Assembly (NCBI RefSeq): GCF_013030945.1 | Contig: NZ_JABBXF010000010.1 | Span: 1-64,000 of the forward strand | Length of the DNA stretch: 64,000 bases | Reading direction: 5' to 3' | From: Streptomyces morookaense | Lineage (GTDB): Bacteria; Actinomycetota; Actinomycetes; Streptomycetales; Streptomycetaceae | Shown here: positions 36,801-41,954 of the stretch, in pieces | Layout: every line of letters starts with the position of its first letter | How positions within the stretch are numbered: position 1 is the first letter of the stretch | Notes under the pieces: generated by a model | Told to the model about the DNA's origin: nothing | Database searches by the model: none | Seen by the model: only the letters and a program-made list of their open reading frames with translations | Position numbers and translations under genes: made by a program

Positions 36801-37678
36801 GCGTCGCCGGTGGCACTGCGCCCGCGCCGGTGCTCGACGGCGTCCTCCCACCAGGCCTCCGGGTCGTCGTACCCGGCGGCTGCGGCGAGCGCCCCGAGGG
36901 GGTCGTCCCGACCGGAGGAGGGGCAGGGCGCCATGGCGGCGCCCTGCTCGGCGTTCATGCGTTGCACACTGGTGAACACGGCCCGCCCGAGCGGGCCGTT
37001 CCGGCGGGATGGGCAGCTGTGCACGCCGGCTGCCTGCGCGACACCTCGCGCCGACACGGTGTCCGGGCCCGGCACACCGGGCAACTCGTCCCTGCCGACG
37101 GGGCTGTTCCGTCGGGACATGAAGCCCTGCGCAACATCCAGCCGCCCCGAGGGCGACCCCTCTTCCCCACCCGGACGCTGCGCGCCGGGCAACTGCCGTT
37201 GATCAAGCGGGCGGTTCCGCTGAGAAGAATGAGACGAACCGTCGTACGCGACAGCACCTTGCACGGCCCCTCCCACCGGCGCCGCACCGGGCCGCCCCGT
37301 GGGCGGAGCCCCTCCCCCACCCGGGTGCCCCGCGCCGGGCAACCGCTCATCGCCGAGCGCGAGCGACACGGCCGCCGGCAGGTCGATGAAGCGCACCGGC
37401 ACGTCATGGGACAGGGCCCAGCGCAGGGCCACCCATTCCGGGGAGAAGTCGGCGAGCGGCCAGAAGGCGGCGCGGCCGGGGTCGTCGGTGGCGTGGGCGA
37501 GGAGGGCCACGGGCGGGCGCATGCGGGGGTCCGCGGCGAGGTGGGCGATCGCGTCCGCCTCCGGCGGGCCCTCGATCAGGACGGCGGGCGGGCGGCACCG
37601 GTCGAGTGCCGCCCGGACGGCGCGGGCCGATCCGGGGCCGTGGTGGCGTACGCCCAGCAGGACGGGGACCGTGCTCAT
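33812..37678 (-). CDS. DUF5682 domain protein fused in frame to a VWA domain protein
   Basis: One open frame of 1288 residues. Residues 1-110 open like DUF5682 (MSTVPVLLGVRHHGPGSARA, VLIEGPPEADAI, VPVRFIDLP); about 111-258 are a low-complexity insert; the domain resumes at AAAAGYDDPEAWWEDAVEH and includes VAVVCGAWHVPAL and GYGAGITSPGWYAHLFRAPDR. From about residue 900 a VWA protein begins (RLRRWRLVLGNDKGADGTGC), with the MIDAS motif DQSGSMAAS and GGGTDINRAL. I believe these are normally two genes. Here no stop separates them, and a dispersed repeat (34952-35014) lies at the join. An internal ATG at 34981 with GGAG ahead could still start the VWA part alone. Start overlaps the MoxR stop (ATGA). 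Confidence 0.82.
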   Translation of the reverse strand: MSTVPVLLGVRHHGPGSARAVRAALDRCRPPAVLIEGPPEADAIAHLAADPRMRPPVALLAHATDDPGRAAFWPLADFSPEWVALRWALSHDVPVRFIDLPAAVSLALGDERLPGAGHPGGGGAPPTGRPGAAPVGGAVQGAVAYDGSSHSSQRNRPLDQRQLPGAQRPGGEEGSPSGRLDVAQGFMSRRNSPVGRDELPGVPGPDTVSARGVAQAAGVHSCPSRRNGPLGRAVFTSVQRMNAEQGAAMAPCPSSGRDDPLGALAAAAGYDDPEAWWEDAVEHRRGRSATGDALAPFHAIAEAMAELRRSDSGSGPLGARDAVREAHMRLKLREARREFGDGVAVVCGAWHVPALAEKRTVASDRQLLKGLPKVRAAIGWVPWTHRRLARRSGYGAGITSPGWYAHLFRAPDRVVERWMTTVARLLRVEDHPVSSAHVIEAVRLAGTLAAVRGRPLPGLTEATDAVRAVMCDGSDVPLALVQDRLVIGDVLGEVPDSAPAVPLQRDLDRLRRSLRLKPEPEVREREFDLRDDNDAARSRLLHRLRLLGVGWGEPVRSRGSLGTFRETWRLCWEPELAVRVAEAGIWGTTVEGAATARAESLARESAALAEVTALAEQCLLAGLPDALPAVMRALADRAALDTDVGHLARALPALVRSVRYGDVRRTGTAALGEVAEGIAGRVFVGLPAACAGLDADAAAEMRGHLDAVHQAVGLLGKEPLRERWAAVLGALAAREHLPGGVKGRAARLLLDDGRLPEEQAARLMGLALSTGTAPAEAAAWIEGFTGSGGAGGMLLVHDGRLLALVDTWLTGVPPDAFRDVLPLLRRTFSGYEPGVRRALGELVRRRGAGAPAPAGDGPPGFGPVLDGDRAAAVLPTLRLLLGLGGEPVVVARAHAAEPHMSPPRAPSGHSAERLRRWRLVLGNDKGADGTGCTLAGTDAAMDRTLQALYGDRSGEDRDWRGAGLGGSAPRIARWLGDIRTYFPTSVVQVMQRDAIERLGLSALLLEPELLEAVEADVHLVGTLLSLNRAMPETVKETARAVVRKVVQDLERRLSSRTRATLTGALDRSSRLARPRHRDIDWDRTIRANLKHYLPEHGTVVPERLIGHGRAARSLRKEVVLCIDQSGSMAASVVHASVFGAVLASMRALDTRLVVFDTSVVDLTDQLADPVDVLFGTRLGGGTDINRALAYCQSRITRPAETVVVLISDLHEGGIRDGMIKRVAAMKASGVQFVSLLALSDEGAPAYDREHAAALAALGAPAFACTPDLFPEVMAAALEKRPLPIPEPG
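34952..35014. repeat. Dispersed repeat at the DUF5682-VWA junction
   Basis: GTGCCCCGAAGGGGCGCGGG followed by ATGCGGCTCCGCCGCGTGGG and an AACCAC tail. The second block matches the intergenic copy at 41963-42027 almost base for base. Here it is translated in frame. Confidence 0.8.
36905..37348 (-). repeat. Four imperfect repeats coding the DUF5682 insert
   Basis: The insert (about residues 111-258) reads as four units of 31-49 residues, each ending S-x-R-[ND]-x-P-[LV]-[GD]: SSQRNRPLDQ, MSRRNSPVGR, PSRRNGPLGR and SSGRDDPLGA. Two units also share an ELPG/QLPG start. Confidence 0.65.
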
Positions 37679-38805
37679 GCGGACACCTCGCGGCACGCAC
37701 GGTAGAAGTCCTTCCAGCCGTCCCGCTCGCGGACGACCGTCTCCAGGTACTCCTGCCAGACCAGCCGGTCGGCCACGGGGTCGCGGACGACCGCGCCGAG
37801 GACGCCCGCGGCCACGTCGCCGGCGCGCAGCACGCCGTCGCCGAAGTGGGCGGCGAGCGCCAGGCCGCCGGTGACGACGGAGATGGCCTCGGCCGTGGAG
37901 AGCGTGCCCGACGGGGACTTGATCCTGGTGCGGCCGTCCGTGGTGACGCCGTCGCGCAGTTCGCGGAAGACCGTGACGACGCGCCGGATCTCGTCCGCCC
38001 CGTCGGGCGCGGTCGGCAGGTCGAGGGCGCGGCCGAGCTGTTCGACGCGCCGGGCGACGATGTCGACCTCGGCCTCGGGGGTCTCGGGCAGGGGCAGGAC
38101 GACGGTGTTGAAGCGACGGCGGAGCGCGCTGGAGAGCTCGTTGACGCCGCGGTCGCGGTCGTTGGCGGTGGCGATGAGGTTGAAGCCGCGAACTGCCTGG
38201 ATCTCCTCGCCGAGTTCGGGGACGGGCAGGGTCTTCTCGGAGAGGACGGTGATGAGCGAGTCCTGGACATCGGCCGGGATGCGGGTGAGTTCCTCGACGC
38301 GGGCGGTCAGGCCCTCGGCCATGGCACGCATGACGGGACTGGGCACGAGCGCTTCGCGGCTGGGGCCGTGGGCCAGGAGCCGGGCGTAGTTCCAGCCGTA
38401 GCGGATGGCCTCCTCCGCGGTGCCCGCGGTGCCCTGCACCAGGAGGGTGGAGTCGCCGCTGACGGCGGCGGCCAGGTGCTCGGAGACCCAGGTCTTGGCG
38501 GTGCCGGGCACGCCGAGCAGCAGCAGTGCGCGGTCGGTGGCGAGCGTGGTGACGGCGACTTCCACGATGCGGCGCGGGCCCACGTACTTGGGCGTGATCA
38601 CGGTGCCGTCGGGCAGCGTGCCGCCGAGCAGGTACGTGGCCACGGACCAGGGCGACAGGCGCCAACGGGCGGGCCTGGGACGGTCGTCGGCGGCGGCGAG
38701 GGCCGCGAGCTCCTCCGCGAAGGCGTCCTCGGCGTGCGGACGCAGAGCCCGGGCCTCGGTGGAAGTGGAAGGCATGGTGGTGGCTGGGATTCCGGGCACG
38801 GTCAC
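37675..38805 (-). CDS. MoxR-type AAA ATPase
   Basis: A 376-residue MoxR/RavA-like AAA+ ATPase. Walker A is LLLLGVPGTAKTW, the pore-side segment QGTAGTAEEAIRYGWNYARLL follows, then VQDSLITVLSEKTLPVPELGEEIQ, sensor 1 FNLIATANDRDRGVNELSSALRRRF and the arginine region after it. Such ATPases act as chaperones with VWA partners, and the next gene supplies a VWA domain. GTG 38805 follows GAGGGGGACTT, closer and stronger than the site before ATG 38775. Transcribed from a RecA-NDp-like promoter (38844-38866). Confidence 0.9.
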   Translation of the reverse strand: MTVPGIPATTMPSTSTEARALRPHAEDAFAEELAALAAADDRPRPARWRLSPWSVATYLLGGTLPDGTVITPKYVGPRRIVEVAVTTLATDRALLLLGVPGTAKTWVSEHLAAAVSGDSTLLVQGTAGTAEEAIRYGWNYARLLAHGPSREALVPSPVMRAMAEGLTARVEELTRIPADVQDSLITVLSEKTLPVPELGEEIQAVRGFNLIATANDRDRGVNELSSALRRRFNTVVLPLPETPEAEVDIVARRVEQLGRALDLPTAPDGADEIRRVVTVFRELRDGVTTDGRTRIKSPSGTLSTAEAISVVTGGLALAAHFGDGVLRAGDVAAGVLGAVVRDPVADRLVWQEYLETVVRERDGWKDFYRACREVSA

Positions 38806-38843: not shown

Positions 38844-38866
38844 ACCTTGCACCAGCCCACTGACAA
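38844..38866 (-). promoter_or_regulatory. RecA-NDp/PafBC-type promoter for the MoxR operon
   Basis: TTGTCAGTG (38858-38866), then exactly 8 bp, then CAAGGT (38844-38849). The mycobacterial RecA-independent DNA-damage promoter is TTGTCRGTG-N8-TANNNT; only the first -10 base differs. It predicts a start near 38837 and a leader of about 30 bases before GTG 38805. Confidence 0.7.
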
Positions 38867-38902
38867 TCGCCCTGACCTGCGGTTTCGTTGCGCCGGGGCC
38901 GA

Positions 38903-38925
38903 TTGTCAGTGCCTGGGTCCAGCAT
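38903..38925 (+). promoter_or_regulatory. RecA-NDp/PafBC-type promoter for the SWIM operon
   Basis: TTGTCAGTG (38903-38911), 8 bp, then CAGCAT (38920-38925). It is the mirror image of the MoxR promoter; the two share a perfect 12-bp inverted repeat (38858-38869 and 38900-38911). The predicted start at 38931-38933 coincides with ATG 38933, so the mRNA is probably leaderless. Confidence 0.7.
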
Positions 38926-38932
38926 GGTCGGC

Positions 38933-40333
38933 ATGAATCCGCAGGGGGAACGCCGGACGGAGGACCAGGTGCTCGCGCTCGCACCTGACGCCGCATCACG
39001 CAAGGCGGGCGCGCGGCTCGGGGTGCCGGGCCCGTGGTCGGGCGCGGGCGCCCGCGCCGAGGGGGGTGCGGGCGCGGTCTGGGGGGAGTGCCGCGGCAGC
39101 GGCAGCACGCCGTACCGGACGGTCGTGGACCTGGCGGACGAGGCCGGCCCGGGCTTCCACTGCACGTGTCCGAGCCGCAAGCTCCCGTGCAAACACGCCC
39201 TGGGGCTGCTGCTGTTGTGGTCCTCGGGCGCGGAGGCGGTACCGGTCACGGCGGAGGATCCTCCGGCCTGGGCGAGTGCCTGGCTGGACCGGCGGAGGCA
39301 GCGCGCCCGCACGGCGGCGGAGGCAGCGGAGGGGCCGGGCGGCGGGTCGGGGGAACCCGCGGCCGACGGCGGGCAGGCCCGGCGCCGGGCGGACCGCCGG
39401 GCGCAGCGCATGGCCGCGGGCGCCGTGGAGTTGGAGCAGCGGCTGGTGGATCTGCTGCGGCACGGGCTGGCGGCCGCCGAGGGATCCGCGTACGGGCCGT
39501 GGGAGGAGACGGCCGCCCGCATGGTCGACGCCCAGGCGCCGGGCCTGGCGGCTCGCATAAGGGAGTTGGCGCCACTGTCCGGCGCGGGCCGGGCCGGTGC
39601 GGGCGCGGGCCGGGGTTCGCGGCTGCTGGAGGAGTGCGCCCTGCTGCACGCCCTCAATCAGGGCTTCCTGCACGCGGACCGGCTCCCCGGCCCGCTCGCC
39701 GCGACGGTGCGCAGCCGCGTCGGCGTCAGTACGGACGCGGCCTCCGTGCTGGCCTCGGCCGCGCCCGTCCGCGACCACTGGCTCGTCCTGGCCCAGCAGG
39801 ACGGCGACGACGGCCGGCTGATCACCCGCCGCATCTGGCTTCGTGGCACCGCGACGGGCCGGATGGCGCTCCTCCTCTCCTACGGGGGAGGAGGTCGGTC
39901 GCCCGAACTGTCGCTTCCTGCAGGGCTCGTGCTGGATGCCGACCTCGCCTTCCACCCGTCGGCCCGCCCGCTGCGGGCCGTCCTGGGCACCCGCCACGCG
40001 CCGCCCGCCCCCTGCCCCGCGCCCCCGCCGGGGGTCGGCACGGAGGCGGCCCTGCGCGCCTATGGCGAGGCCCTGCGCGACGATCCCTGGCTGGACGCCT
40101 GGCCGGTGGTCCTGTCGGACGTGGTCCCGGTCCCGGATCCGGAGCGCGGCTGGCAACTGGCCGATGCCGACGGCGATTCGGCGCTCCCCGTCGACCCGCG
40201 GTGCAGTGACCGTACGGGCCTGTGGCAGCTCACGGCGATATCCGGCGGCGGCCCGGTGACGGTCTTCGGTGAATGCGGTCACCGGGGCTTCGCACCGCTG
40301 GCCACATGGGCGCCGGAACTCGTGGCACTGTGA
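38933..40333 (+). CDS. SWIM zinc finger family protein
   Basis: A 466-residue protein. The SWIM motif C-x-C-xn-C-x-H is complete near residue 75 (FHCTCPSRKLPCKHALGLLLLW), after a family-typical start (RTEDQVLALAPDAASRKAGARLG). The rest is helical and Ala/Gly-rich, ending in GPVTVFGECGHRGFAPLATWAPELVAL. SWIM fingers bind DNA or proteins. Start chosen at ATG 38933 because the promoter -10 box covers the in-frame ATG at 38924. It precedes the DUF5691 gene by 13 bp and is divergent from the MoxR operon. Confidence 0.9.
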   Translation: MNPQGERRTEDQVLALAPDAASRKAGARLGVPGPWSGAGARAEGGAGAVWGECRGSGSTPYRTVVDLADEAGPGFHCTCPSRKLPCKHALGLLLLWSSGAEAVPVTAEDPPAWASAWLDRRRQRARTAAEAAEGPGGGSGEPAADGGQARRRADRRAQRMAAGAVELEQRLVDLLRHGLAAAEGSAYGPWEETAARMVDAQAPGLAARIRELAPLSGAGRAGAGAGRGSRLLEECALLHALNQGFLHADRLPGPLAATVRSRVGVSTDAASVLASAAPVRDHWLVLAQQDGDDGRLITRRIWLRGTATGRMALLLSYGGGGRSPELSLPAGLVLDADLAFHPSARPLRAVLGTRHAPPAPCPAPPPGVGTEAALRAYGEALRDDPWLDAWPVVLSDVVPVPDPERGWQLADADGDSALPVDPRCSDRTGLWQLTAISGGGPVTVFGECGHRGFAPLATWAPELVAL

Positions 40334-40346
40334 AGGGAGCCGAGGC

Positions 40347-41954
40347 ATGACCACCACCTCCTGCACCACCCCGCACCCGCCCGCCTGGGACGAACTCGTC
40401 GCCGCCGCCCTGCTCGGCACCGAGCGGCGCACCCCGCCCGTGCAGCCGCGCCCGGGCCGGGATCCGGCGGCAGCGCTGCTGGACGAGGCCGCGCTGCGCA
40501 CGGTGCAGCGGCGCGCCGCCCTGCTGCCGGCCGCGGCCGGAGCACGTCCCGAGGCTGCTCCGGACGATCCGCGTCCGCCGCTTCCGGCCGCCGCCGCCCG
40601 GCGGTTGGCGCTGCTGCTCGCCGACCGCGCGGGTTCCGGCGGGGGCCGGCAGGGCTCCGCGCCCGATCTGACCGAGCTGCTGCCGCAGTGGCTCACCGCC
40701 GCCAACGGCCATGGCCACCGGGCTCCCGCCGCCCTGCTGCCCGGCCTGCTCGACGCGGCGCGGGCCCGCAGCGACCTGCGGTCGGAGGCCCTCGCCCTGG
40801 CCGGGCCACGCGGACTGTGGCTGGCCCGGCTCAACCCGCAGTGGGCATACGCCCTGCGCGGCACGGCTGCGGGCAGCGCGGCGCTGCCCGCGGCGGCCGG
40901 TGAACAGGTGTGGCACGAGGGCCTGTTCGCGGAGCGGGTCGCCCTGCTCGCGTCCCTGCGGCGCGGTGATCCGGCGGCCGCCCGGGAGCTGCTGGCCACC
41001 ACGTGGGCCGAGGAGCGCGCCGAGGACCGGCTGATGTTCCTCGACACGCTGCGGGAGGGCGTCTCCCTCGCGGACGAGCCGTTCCTGGAACAGGCGCTGT
41101 CCGACCGCAGCCGCAATGTGCGGGCCCTGGCGGCCGAGCTCCTGTCCGCCCTCCCCGGCTCGGCCCTCGCGGCCCGGATGGCCGAACGGGCCCGCGCCTG
41201 CGTGGCCTTGGACGTCGCGGGCACCCGCGAGGACCGGCGCATAGCGGTGGAGGCGCCGCCCGAGTGCGACAGCGCGATGCAGCGGGACGGCGTCGTCGCC
41301 AAGCCGCCGTCCGGCAGGGGCGAGCGGTCGTGGTGGCTGACCCAGCTGGTCGAGGCCGCTCCCCTGGCCACCTGGTACGAGCGGCTCGGCGTCACGGATG
41401 CGGCCGGGGCGGTGGCCCTGCCGGTGGCCGACGGCTGGCAGCCCGATCTGCACGCCGCCTGGTGCCGGGCGGCCGTGCGGCAGCGGGACGCGGACTGGGC
41501 GAGGGCGCTGCTGGGCCCGGCGACGGCGCCGCCCGCGCCGGAGGGTGCGGCGTGGCGCGACCCCGCGAAGCTGCTGTCGGCCCTGCCGCCCGCCGAACGG
41601 GCCGCCTGGGTGGCGGACTTCATCTCCGCGCACGGCCTGTCGGACGCGTTCCGGCTGCTGGGGGTGTGCACGGTGCCGTGGGCGGAGCCGCTGGGGAGGG
41701 CGGTGGTGGATGCGCTCGACATCGCGCGGGACGCGGGGAGTTACCCGTGGAGCTTCAGCGGGGTGATGGGCATGGCGGAGCGCTGCCTCGACCCGGCGGA
41801 GGCCGGACGGCTGGAAGTGCTCACTGCGGTACCGGACACGGAGTCGGCCCCACCGGGAGCCGCCGGGTACTGGGCGGAGGCGTTCCGCCGGCTCGTGGGC
41901 ACACTGCGGCTGCGGGGGGTGATGCACGAGGAGTTGGCAGGCCCCACGGCGTAG
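40347..41954 (+). CDS. DUF5691 family protein
   Basis: A 535-residue soluble helical protein. The opening WDELVAAALLGTERRTPPV and later LPGLLDAARARSDLRSEALALAGPRGLWLARLNPQW and SDRSRNVRALAAELLSALPGSALAARM suggest HEAT-like helical repeats. I assign DUF5691 from memory of this text and its usual place after the SWIM gene. ATG 40347 follows GAAGGGAGCCGAGGC. Likely cotranscribed with SWIM. Function unknown. Confidence 0.8.
   Translation: MTTTSCTTPHPPAWDELVAAALLGTERRTPPVQPRPGRDPAAALLDEAALRTVQRRAALLPAAAGARPEAAPDDPRPPLPAAAARRLALLLADRAGSGGGRQGSAPDLTELLPQWLTAANGHGHRAPAALLPGLLDAARARSDLRSEALALAGPRGLWLARLNPQWAYALRGTAAGSAALPAAAGEQVWHEGLFAERVALLASLRRGDPAAARELLATTWAEERAEDRLMFLDTLREGVSLADEPFLEQALSDRSRNVRALAAELLSALPGSALAARMAERARACVALDVAGTREDRRIAVEAPPECDSAMQRDGVVAKPPSGRGERSWWLTQLVEAAPLATWYERLGVTDAAGAVALPVADGWQPDLHAAWCRAAVRQRDADWARALLGPATAPPAPEGAAWRDPAKLLSALPPAERAAWVADFISAHGLSDAFRLLGVCTVPWAEPLGRAVVDALDIARDAGSYPWSFSGVMGMAERCLDPAEAGRLEVLTAVPDTESAPPGAAGYWAEAFRRLVGTLRLRGVMHEELAGPTA

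Follow-up and report, generated by a model that had tools for sequence, protein, structure and literature searches.

The promoters read by PafBC in mycobacteria share the consensus TTGTCRGTG-N8-TANNNT, in which the -10 element starts with T, and the AfsR/SARP activators of Streptomyces are comparable in having direct repeats upstream but differ in motif and signal. As described for mycobacteria, single-stranded DNA is the signal, PafB recognises the -26 motif and PafC makes contact with domain 4 of the sigma factor; the same source presents AfsR/SARP as also activating by a form of sigma adaptation, without WYL domains (PMC11804915). In S. coelicolor, the gene SCO6735 is reported to have a RecA-NDp promoter and to be UV-inducible (PMC5087735), and a review extends the RecA-NDp promoter to other Actinobacteria (PMC8223512). 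For S. venezuelae, the relevant passage of the LexA paper by Stratton et al. (2022) mentions a first search in which the PafBC motif of M. smegmatis seemed not to be conserved, and leaves open the existence of a PafBC-like damage response in Streptomyces (PMC9380542). The locus described here lies in a 64-kb stretch of Streptomyces DNA (the whole of which is henceforth referred to as the window) and shares with the RecA-NDp promoters of mycobacteria and Streptomyces (recA, SCO6735) the TTGTCRGTG element, the 8 bp that follow it, a -10 element, the sites at repair genes and the presence of PafB and PafC. It differs from them in its pair of divergent copies at unstudied operons, in -10 elements that start with C and in an extra GCAGGTCAG element upstream of one copy (Table 1). 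Judged from sequence, we consider it highly likely that positions 38844-38925 form a two-way promoter composed of a back-to-back pair of RecA-NDp/PafBC-type promoters; these are known in kind and very probably real, and both operons are probably switched on together by DNA damage. The locus makes the question of PafBC in Streptomyces testable, and the halves of a two-way promoter can serve as controls for each other.

Table 1. Features of the divergent promoter region and of the two operons that flank it in the window.
Feature	Position	Strand	Remark
SWIM-side -26 type motif TTGTCAGTG	38903..38911	+	sequence read
SWIM-side spacer CCTGGGTC, 8 bp		+	between motif and -10; sequence read
SWIM-side -10 box CAGCAT	38920..38925	+	8 bp past motif
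MoxR-side -26 type motif TTGTCAGTG	38858..38866 (reads 38866-38858)	-	sequence read
MoxR-side spacer GGCTGGTG, 8 bp		-	between motif and -10; sequence read
MoxR-side -10 box CAAGGT	38844..38849 (reads 38849-38844)	-	8 bp past motif
Mirror region	38858..38911	none	36 bp separating the two 9-mers
Central element, CTGACCTGC on + (GCAGGTCAG on -)	38872..38880	-	5 nt upstream of MoxR-side motif
SWIM zinc-finger gene	38933..40333	+	PF04434; predicted leaderless start ATG 38933
DUF5691 gene	40347..41954	+	PF18944, E 1.6e-171; 13 bp past SWIM gene
MoxR-type AAA+ ATPase gene	37675..38805	-	PF07728 (AAA_5)
DUF5682 + CoxE-type VWA, one fused ORF, 1288 aa	33812..37678	-	PF18934, PF05762; 4-bp overlap with MoxR gene

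An earlier note on this DNA had placed the 9-mer TTGTCAGTG on both strands within a perfect 12-bp inverted repeat, each copy followed by 8 bp and a CANNNT box, and this is borne out by the sequence. The arms CACTGACAATCG (38858-38869) and CGATTGTCAGTG (38900-38911) are perfectly complementary over 12 bp with 30 bp between them, both sites match the TTGTCRGTG element at 9/9 letters, the 8-bp spacing from motif to -10 box is present at both, and the first base of both -10 boxes is C. The 9-mer occurs in the window in these two copies on opposite strands and nowhere else, whereas 100 shuffled windows contained a mean of 0.17 copies, at most 1 and never 2; these shuffles and the reversed-pattern genome count given below rule out a chance origin of the motif pair. 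On the SWIM side the ATG at 38933 starts 7 nt past the -10 box. On the other side, comparison with orthologues makes GTG 38805 the most likely start of the MoxR gene (alternative, 38799), which would give the MoxR mRNA a leader of ~32 nt, so that the SWIM mRNA alone is predicted to be leaderless. If it is, the SWIM-side motif would span -30 to -22.

A genome scan for the motif, proposed as a check in the earlier note, was carried out on the 7.47 Mb (237 contigs) of the genome with the 23-nt pattern TTGTCRGTG-N9-A-N3-T, in which the first -10 base is left free, and found 52 sites compared to 2 for the reversed control. When TANNNT was demanded, 19 sites remained compared to none for the control. 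The free first -10 base is T at 19 of the 52 sites and C at 21, and C is also found at the polA and dinB-type sites. Each of 14 genomes of the same genus contains 10 to 40 sites of the TANNNT form, with 2 control matches over all 14, and 113 of 148 genomes of the class have at least one; at the level of sequence, the counts in the 14 genomes speak against an absence of the motif from the genus. A literature search with the literal 9-mer returned, among the matches listed, none that by its title concerned bacterial DNA damage.

To characterise the genes at these sites, the surroundings of the 50 sites other than the window pair were taken, the downstream frame was picked by codon GC, and 37 of the 50 proteins were scanned against Pfam; the other 13 sites lacked a convincing downstream gene, or else fell inside or opposite another frame. 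In this GC-rich DNA, 10 of the 50 sites have a downstream frame that is open past the motif too, so that for them the start was picked after the motif. Repair, replication or dTMP supply accounts for 17 of the 37 proteins, with matches to RecA, UvrB, UvrC, RuvC, DNA_pol_A, IMS (dinB-type), UvrD, Lhr, DNA polymerase III gamma/tau and delta', UDG, AlkZ-like, Thy1, topoisomerase subunit A, a RecD2-like helicase, an RNase_T exonuclease and a protein that we take to be RadA-like; gene names such as recA and polA are our interpretation of these Pfam matches. The remaining 20 proteins fall outside the repair families, 14 into other families (YjbR, DtxR-type repressor, pentapeptide, ABC transporter, MDMPI, ferredoxin, short-chain dehydrogenase, YunG, HEPN, permease, VWA, methyltransferase, RibD_C and FAD oxidoreductase) and 6 without any match. 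Since these 20 proteins are not repair proteins and 8 of the 50 sites face a long frame on the opposite strand, some of the sites need not be promoters. The scan nevertheless narrows the candidates to 52 sites, a short list whose genes include recA, uvrB, uvrC and ruvC. An ATG or GTG is found 6 or 7 nt past the -10 box at 23 of the 52 sites, 19 of which open a long, high-GC3 frame, and no other start-codon offset from 0 to 29 nt is common to more than 5 sites. Leaderless transcripts thus look like a habit of the set, and the leaderless SWIM mRNA that the earlier note had predicted at ATG 38933 fits this pattern.

Two adjacent WYL genes on contig C145 of the same genome match PafB and PafC, with hits to the PafBC chains 7p5x, 9fnd and 6sj9 at E-values of 2e-40 to 3e-53. 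Following the mycobacterial precedent, DNA damage would yield single-stranded DNA and so render PafBC active, PafB would read TTGTCAGTG at about -30 to -22, PafC would hold domain 4 of the housekeeping sigma factor, and RNA polymerase would fire both ways, the predicted products being a leaderless SWIM-DUF5691 mRNA and a short-leader MoxR-DUF5682-VWA mRNA. Because the genome has 8 WYL matches, a different WYL-type activator of similar motif might read the sites, as SiwR of M. smegmatis is reported to act likewise at -26 (PMC10693628), or else the housekeeping sigma factor might do so alone. We consider this unlikely: the HTH stretch of PafB aligns closely with that of the M. smegmatis protein, and both the motif and the targets fit what is reported of mycobacterial PafBC. 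The assignment of RecA-NDp/PafBC-type promoters to both operons, as made originally, is backed by the repair-gene sites, by the presence of PafB and PafC, and by conservation.

Conservation was assessed by scanning 350 bp at each locus. The SWIM-side 9-mer is exact in 80/80 and the MoxR-side 9-mer in 75/80 loci, counts which favour conservation because these loci, the best 80 of at least 418 confirmed relatives and all from Streptomyces, are the closest relatives of the query. In the same 80 orthologues the plus-strand -10 box always starts with TA, unlike the CA of the window, and the minus-strand box starts with CA at 75/75 sites, preceded by GGTG at 71 of them. Among the five loci lacking an exact MoxR-side site, L031 and L058 have one mismatch each, L072 and L077 have an exact site 630 and 617 bp off, in front of MoxR, and L023 has no MoxR-side site inside 1500 bp. 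A further 40 loci of the family were added, 32 of them from genomes in which a search restricted to gaps of 20-50 bp had found no mirror pair; an exact plus 9-mer adjoins the SWIM gene in 18 of the 40, and an exact minus 9-mer is present in 23. On re-examination of 22 family loci, 18 proved to have, ahead of the SWIM start, a plus site that combines a full -10 box with no more than 2 mismatches, with scores matched by 0-2% of 100 shuffles; in the remaining 4 the SWIM start was not found (3 loci) or was mislocated (1 locus). The expectation that the motif is conserved in front of orthologous operons thus held within the Streptomycetaceae.

Outside the family, the SWIM start was located and the region scored in four loci and not located in four more (L220, L221, L222 and L224). 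In L217 an exact 9-mer, N8 and TACAAA follow one another near the operon, L218 has 8/9 motif letters, L219 has 7/9 letters with a full -10 box and a score reached by 0/100 shuffles, and L223 has no motif above chance. All eight loci have their recognised genes on a single strand, with other genes intervening in L224. The SWIM-type gene at the L217 site seems to be without a zinc finger.

The perfect 12-bp arms would also suit a single operator, from which a dimeric repressor or activator would act over the intergenic region in place of two promoters. This we regard as very improbable, since anything from 15 to 84 bp can separate the 9-mers, single copies of the 9-mer precede repair genes and each arm keeps its own N8 and -10 box. 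Moreover, in L072, L077 and L209 some 570-630 bp of extra DNA lie between the promoters, and each 9-mer nevertheless stays with its own operon.

The genes on either side comprise a set of MoxR AAA+, DUF5682, CoxE-type VWA and SWIM genes of the YehL/M/P/Q type, as judged by Pfam. The E. coli genes yehL-yehM-yehP-yehQ represent the same four Pfam families (AAA_5/MoxR, DUF5682, VWA_CoxE and SWIM), but all four lie on one strand, whereas the Streptomyces genes are split and divergent; further, the E. coli genes have no DUF5691 match, and DUF5682 and VWA are fused in the window, unlike in E. coli. With respect to the MoxR-DUF5682-VWA operon named in the earlier note, the three families were confirmed by Pfam, but DUF5682 and VWA are not separate genes in the window. 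DUF5691 is present in 118 of 121 genomes of the family and in 38 of 396 genomes of the phylum (33 over the cut-off), and 20 of these 38 belong to the genus of the window. In the orthologues listed, the DUF5682 frames mostly end near 760-990 aa (L014 is longer, 1187 aa), and DUF5682 appears, from these frames, to be a gene of its own.

It is conceivable that DUF5682 is a TraB/Tiki-type enzyme. Its structure model has a mean pLDDT of 58, and its alignment profile gave one match among solved structures, at E 0.21, while that of SWIM gave none. Neither DUF5682 nor DUF5691 was mentioned in the literature searched. The MoxR-vWA ternary conflict systems likewise couple a MoxR ATPase to a vWA protein and are described as being defined by a third component, which is VMAP, iSTAND, FtsH or a beta-propeller (PMC7159879). 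Pfam and PADLOC scans detected none of these four components in the four operon proteins, the bpMoxR match of the window falls below the Pfam cut-off, and the word SWIM is absent from the paper on the ternary systems (PMC7159879). A defence system was also considered and rejected, as none of the four operon proteins had a PADLOC match. The operon products probably form one chaperone-type MoxR/VWA system that is made on demand after DNA damage; because of the promoter type and of MoxR/VWA pairs elsewhere, we infer by analogy that it may act in a chaperone-like manner in the survival of DNA damage. This unstudied gene set, which E. coli shares as yehLMPQ, hereby gains a first testable role, in DNA damage.

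What is new here, and absent from the earlier note, is the central element together with a gap between the promoters of 0, 1 or 2 modulo 12. The central element is present at 7/9 letters or better in 85 of 88 spacers, compared to 13.4 on average and at most 26 of 88 in shuffled spacers, and the three spacers without it (L191, L197 and L215) are all from other genera. Its distance from the motif to which it points is 5, 6 or 17 nt in 84 of the 85 spacers. The side that it serves is not constant: it is the MoxR side in the window and the SWIM side in the nearest relatives (L009-L013), and a quick tree of 93 SWIM proteins implies at least 5 changes of side.

As the GCAGGTCAG element adjoins a single promoter, and which of the two varies, it could be a functionless relic of shared ancestry or a mutation-prone stretch. 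This explanation appears rather unlikely to us in view of its retention relative to shuffled spacers, its fixed distances from the motif and the fact that the block of element and promoter also precedes HEPN, Lhr and a second SWIM gene in other genomes. We favour the reading that the GCAGGTCAG element probably boosts the one promoter of the two towards which it is oriented. Within the genome of the window, 3 of the 52 sites have AGGTC at precisely 12 nt upstream of the 9-mer, namely the window locus, the pentapeptide gene and the HEPN gene. The pattern AGGTC-N6..9-TTGTCRGTG has 97 matches in 41 genomes compared to 11 for the reversed pattern. This control makes no correction for the 9-mer being enriched on its own, and many of those matches that read TTGTCGGTG may be coding. 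That the central element marks the mirror locus alone is ruled out by its occurrence before other genes. A second SWIM zinc-finger gene (Pfam) in another Streptomyces genome (L229:262-1671, minus strand) has an extended GCAGGTC...TTGTCAGTG promoter, and L235 looks like this gene. The L238 gene, which also has an extended promoter, was considered as the macrodomain gene SCO6735 and discounted, since Pfam gave no match.

The gap between the 9-mers is 0, 1 or 2 modulo 12 in 79 of 80 loci of the genus Streptomyces (36-38, 48-49, 60-61 and 84 bp), the sole exception being L211 with a gap of 59. The SWIM tree, from which L211 was left out as no SWIM start was found there, implies at least 19 changes of gap size class. 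In other genera the gaps include 15, 25, 29, 33 and 42 besides 36, 37, 38 and 49; of the loci with gaps of 29, 33 and 42, two lack the central element and one has it at 13 nt, and the gap-15 locus also lacks it. When the distinct gaps (L211 included) were compared with a range of periods, R was 0.91 at 11.5-12 bp and 0.62 at 10.5 bp, so that helical phasing at 10.5 bp gives the poorer fit. Tandem duplication of 12 bp as a source of the ladder left no clear sign, as self-identity at lag 12 (0.319) was similar to that at lags 18 (0.331) and 6 (0.313). Our guess is that the ladder represents phasing on DNA that is underwound in the cell.

The central element and the 12-bp ladder point to an unrecognised part of these promoters. 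Tentatively, we propose a phased, three-site, two-way switch, in which the two PafBC promoters and the central GCAGGTCAG site would lie on a lattice of ~11.5-12 bp and one protein assembly would serve both directions, with the phase kept through at least 5 changes of side. Such a switch, which is possible rather than probable, would govern the MoxR-SWIM machine, itself then a new component, made on demand, of the way in which actinobacteria respond to DNA damage. None of the cited papers, in so far as the parts drawn on here are concerned, describes the mirror-image layout at these operons, the central element or the gap ladder.

Back-to-back sites were also seen elsewhere: a genome from a different family (G060, C1:1907155-1907240) has another such pair, composed of two identical 23-mers TTGTCGGTGGTCCCGCCTAGCGT. 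Two genomes of family f93, G584 and G596, have 63 and 119 motif sites, respectively, and many of the listed sites of G584 are the identical string TTGTCGGTGCCCGCCCGTAGGGT, as if a promoter-bearing repeat had spread.
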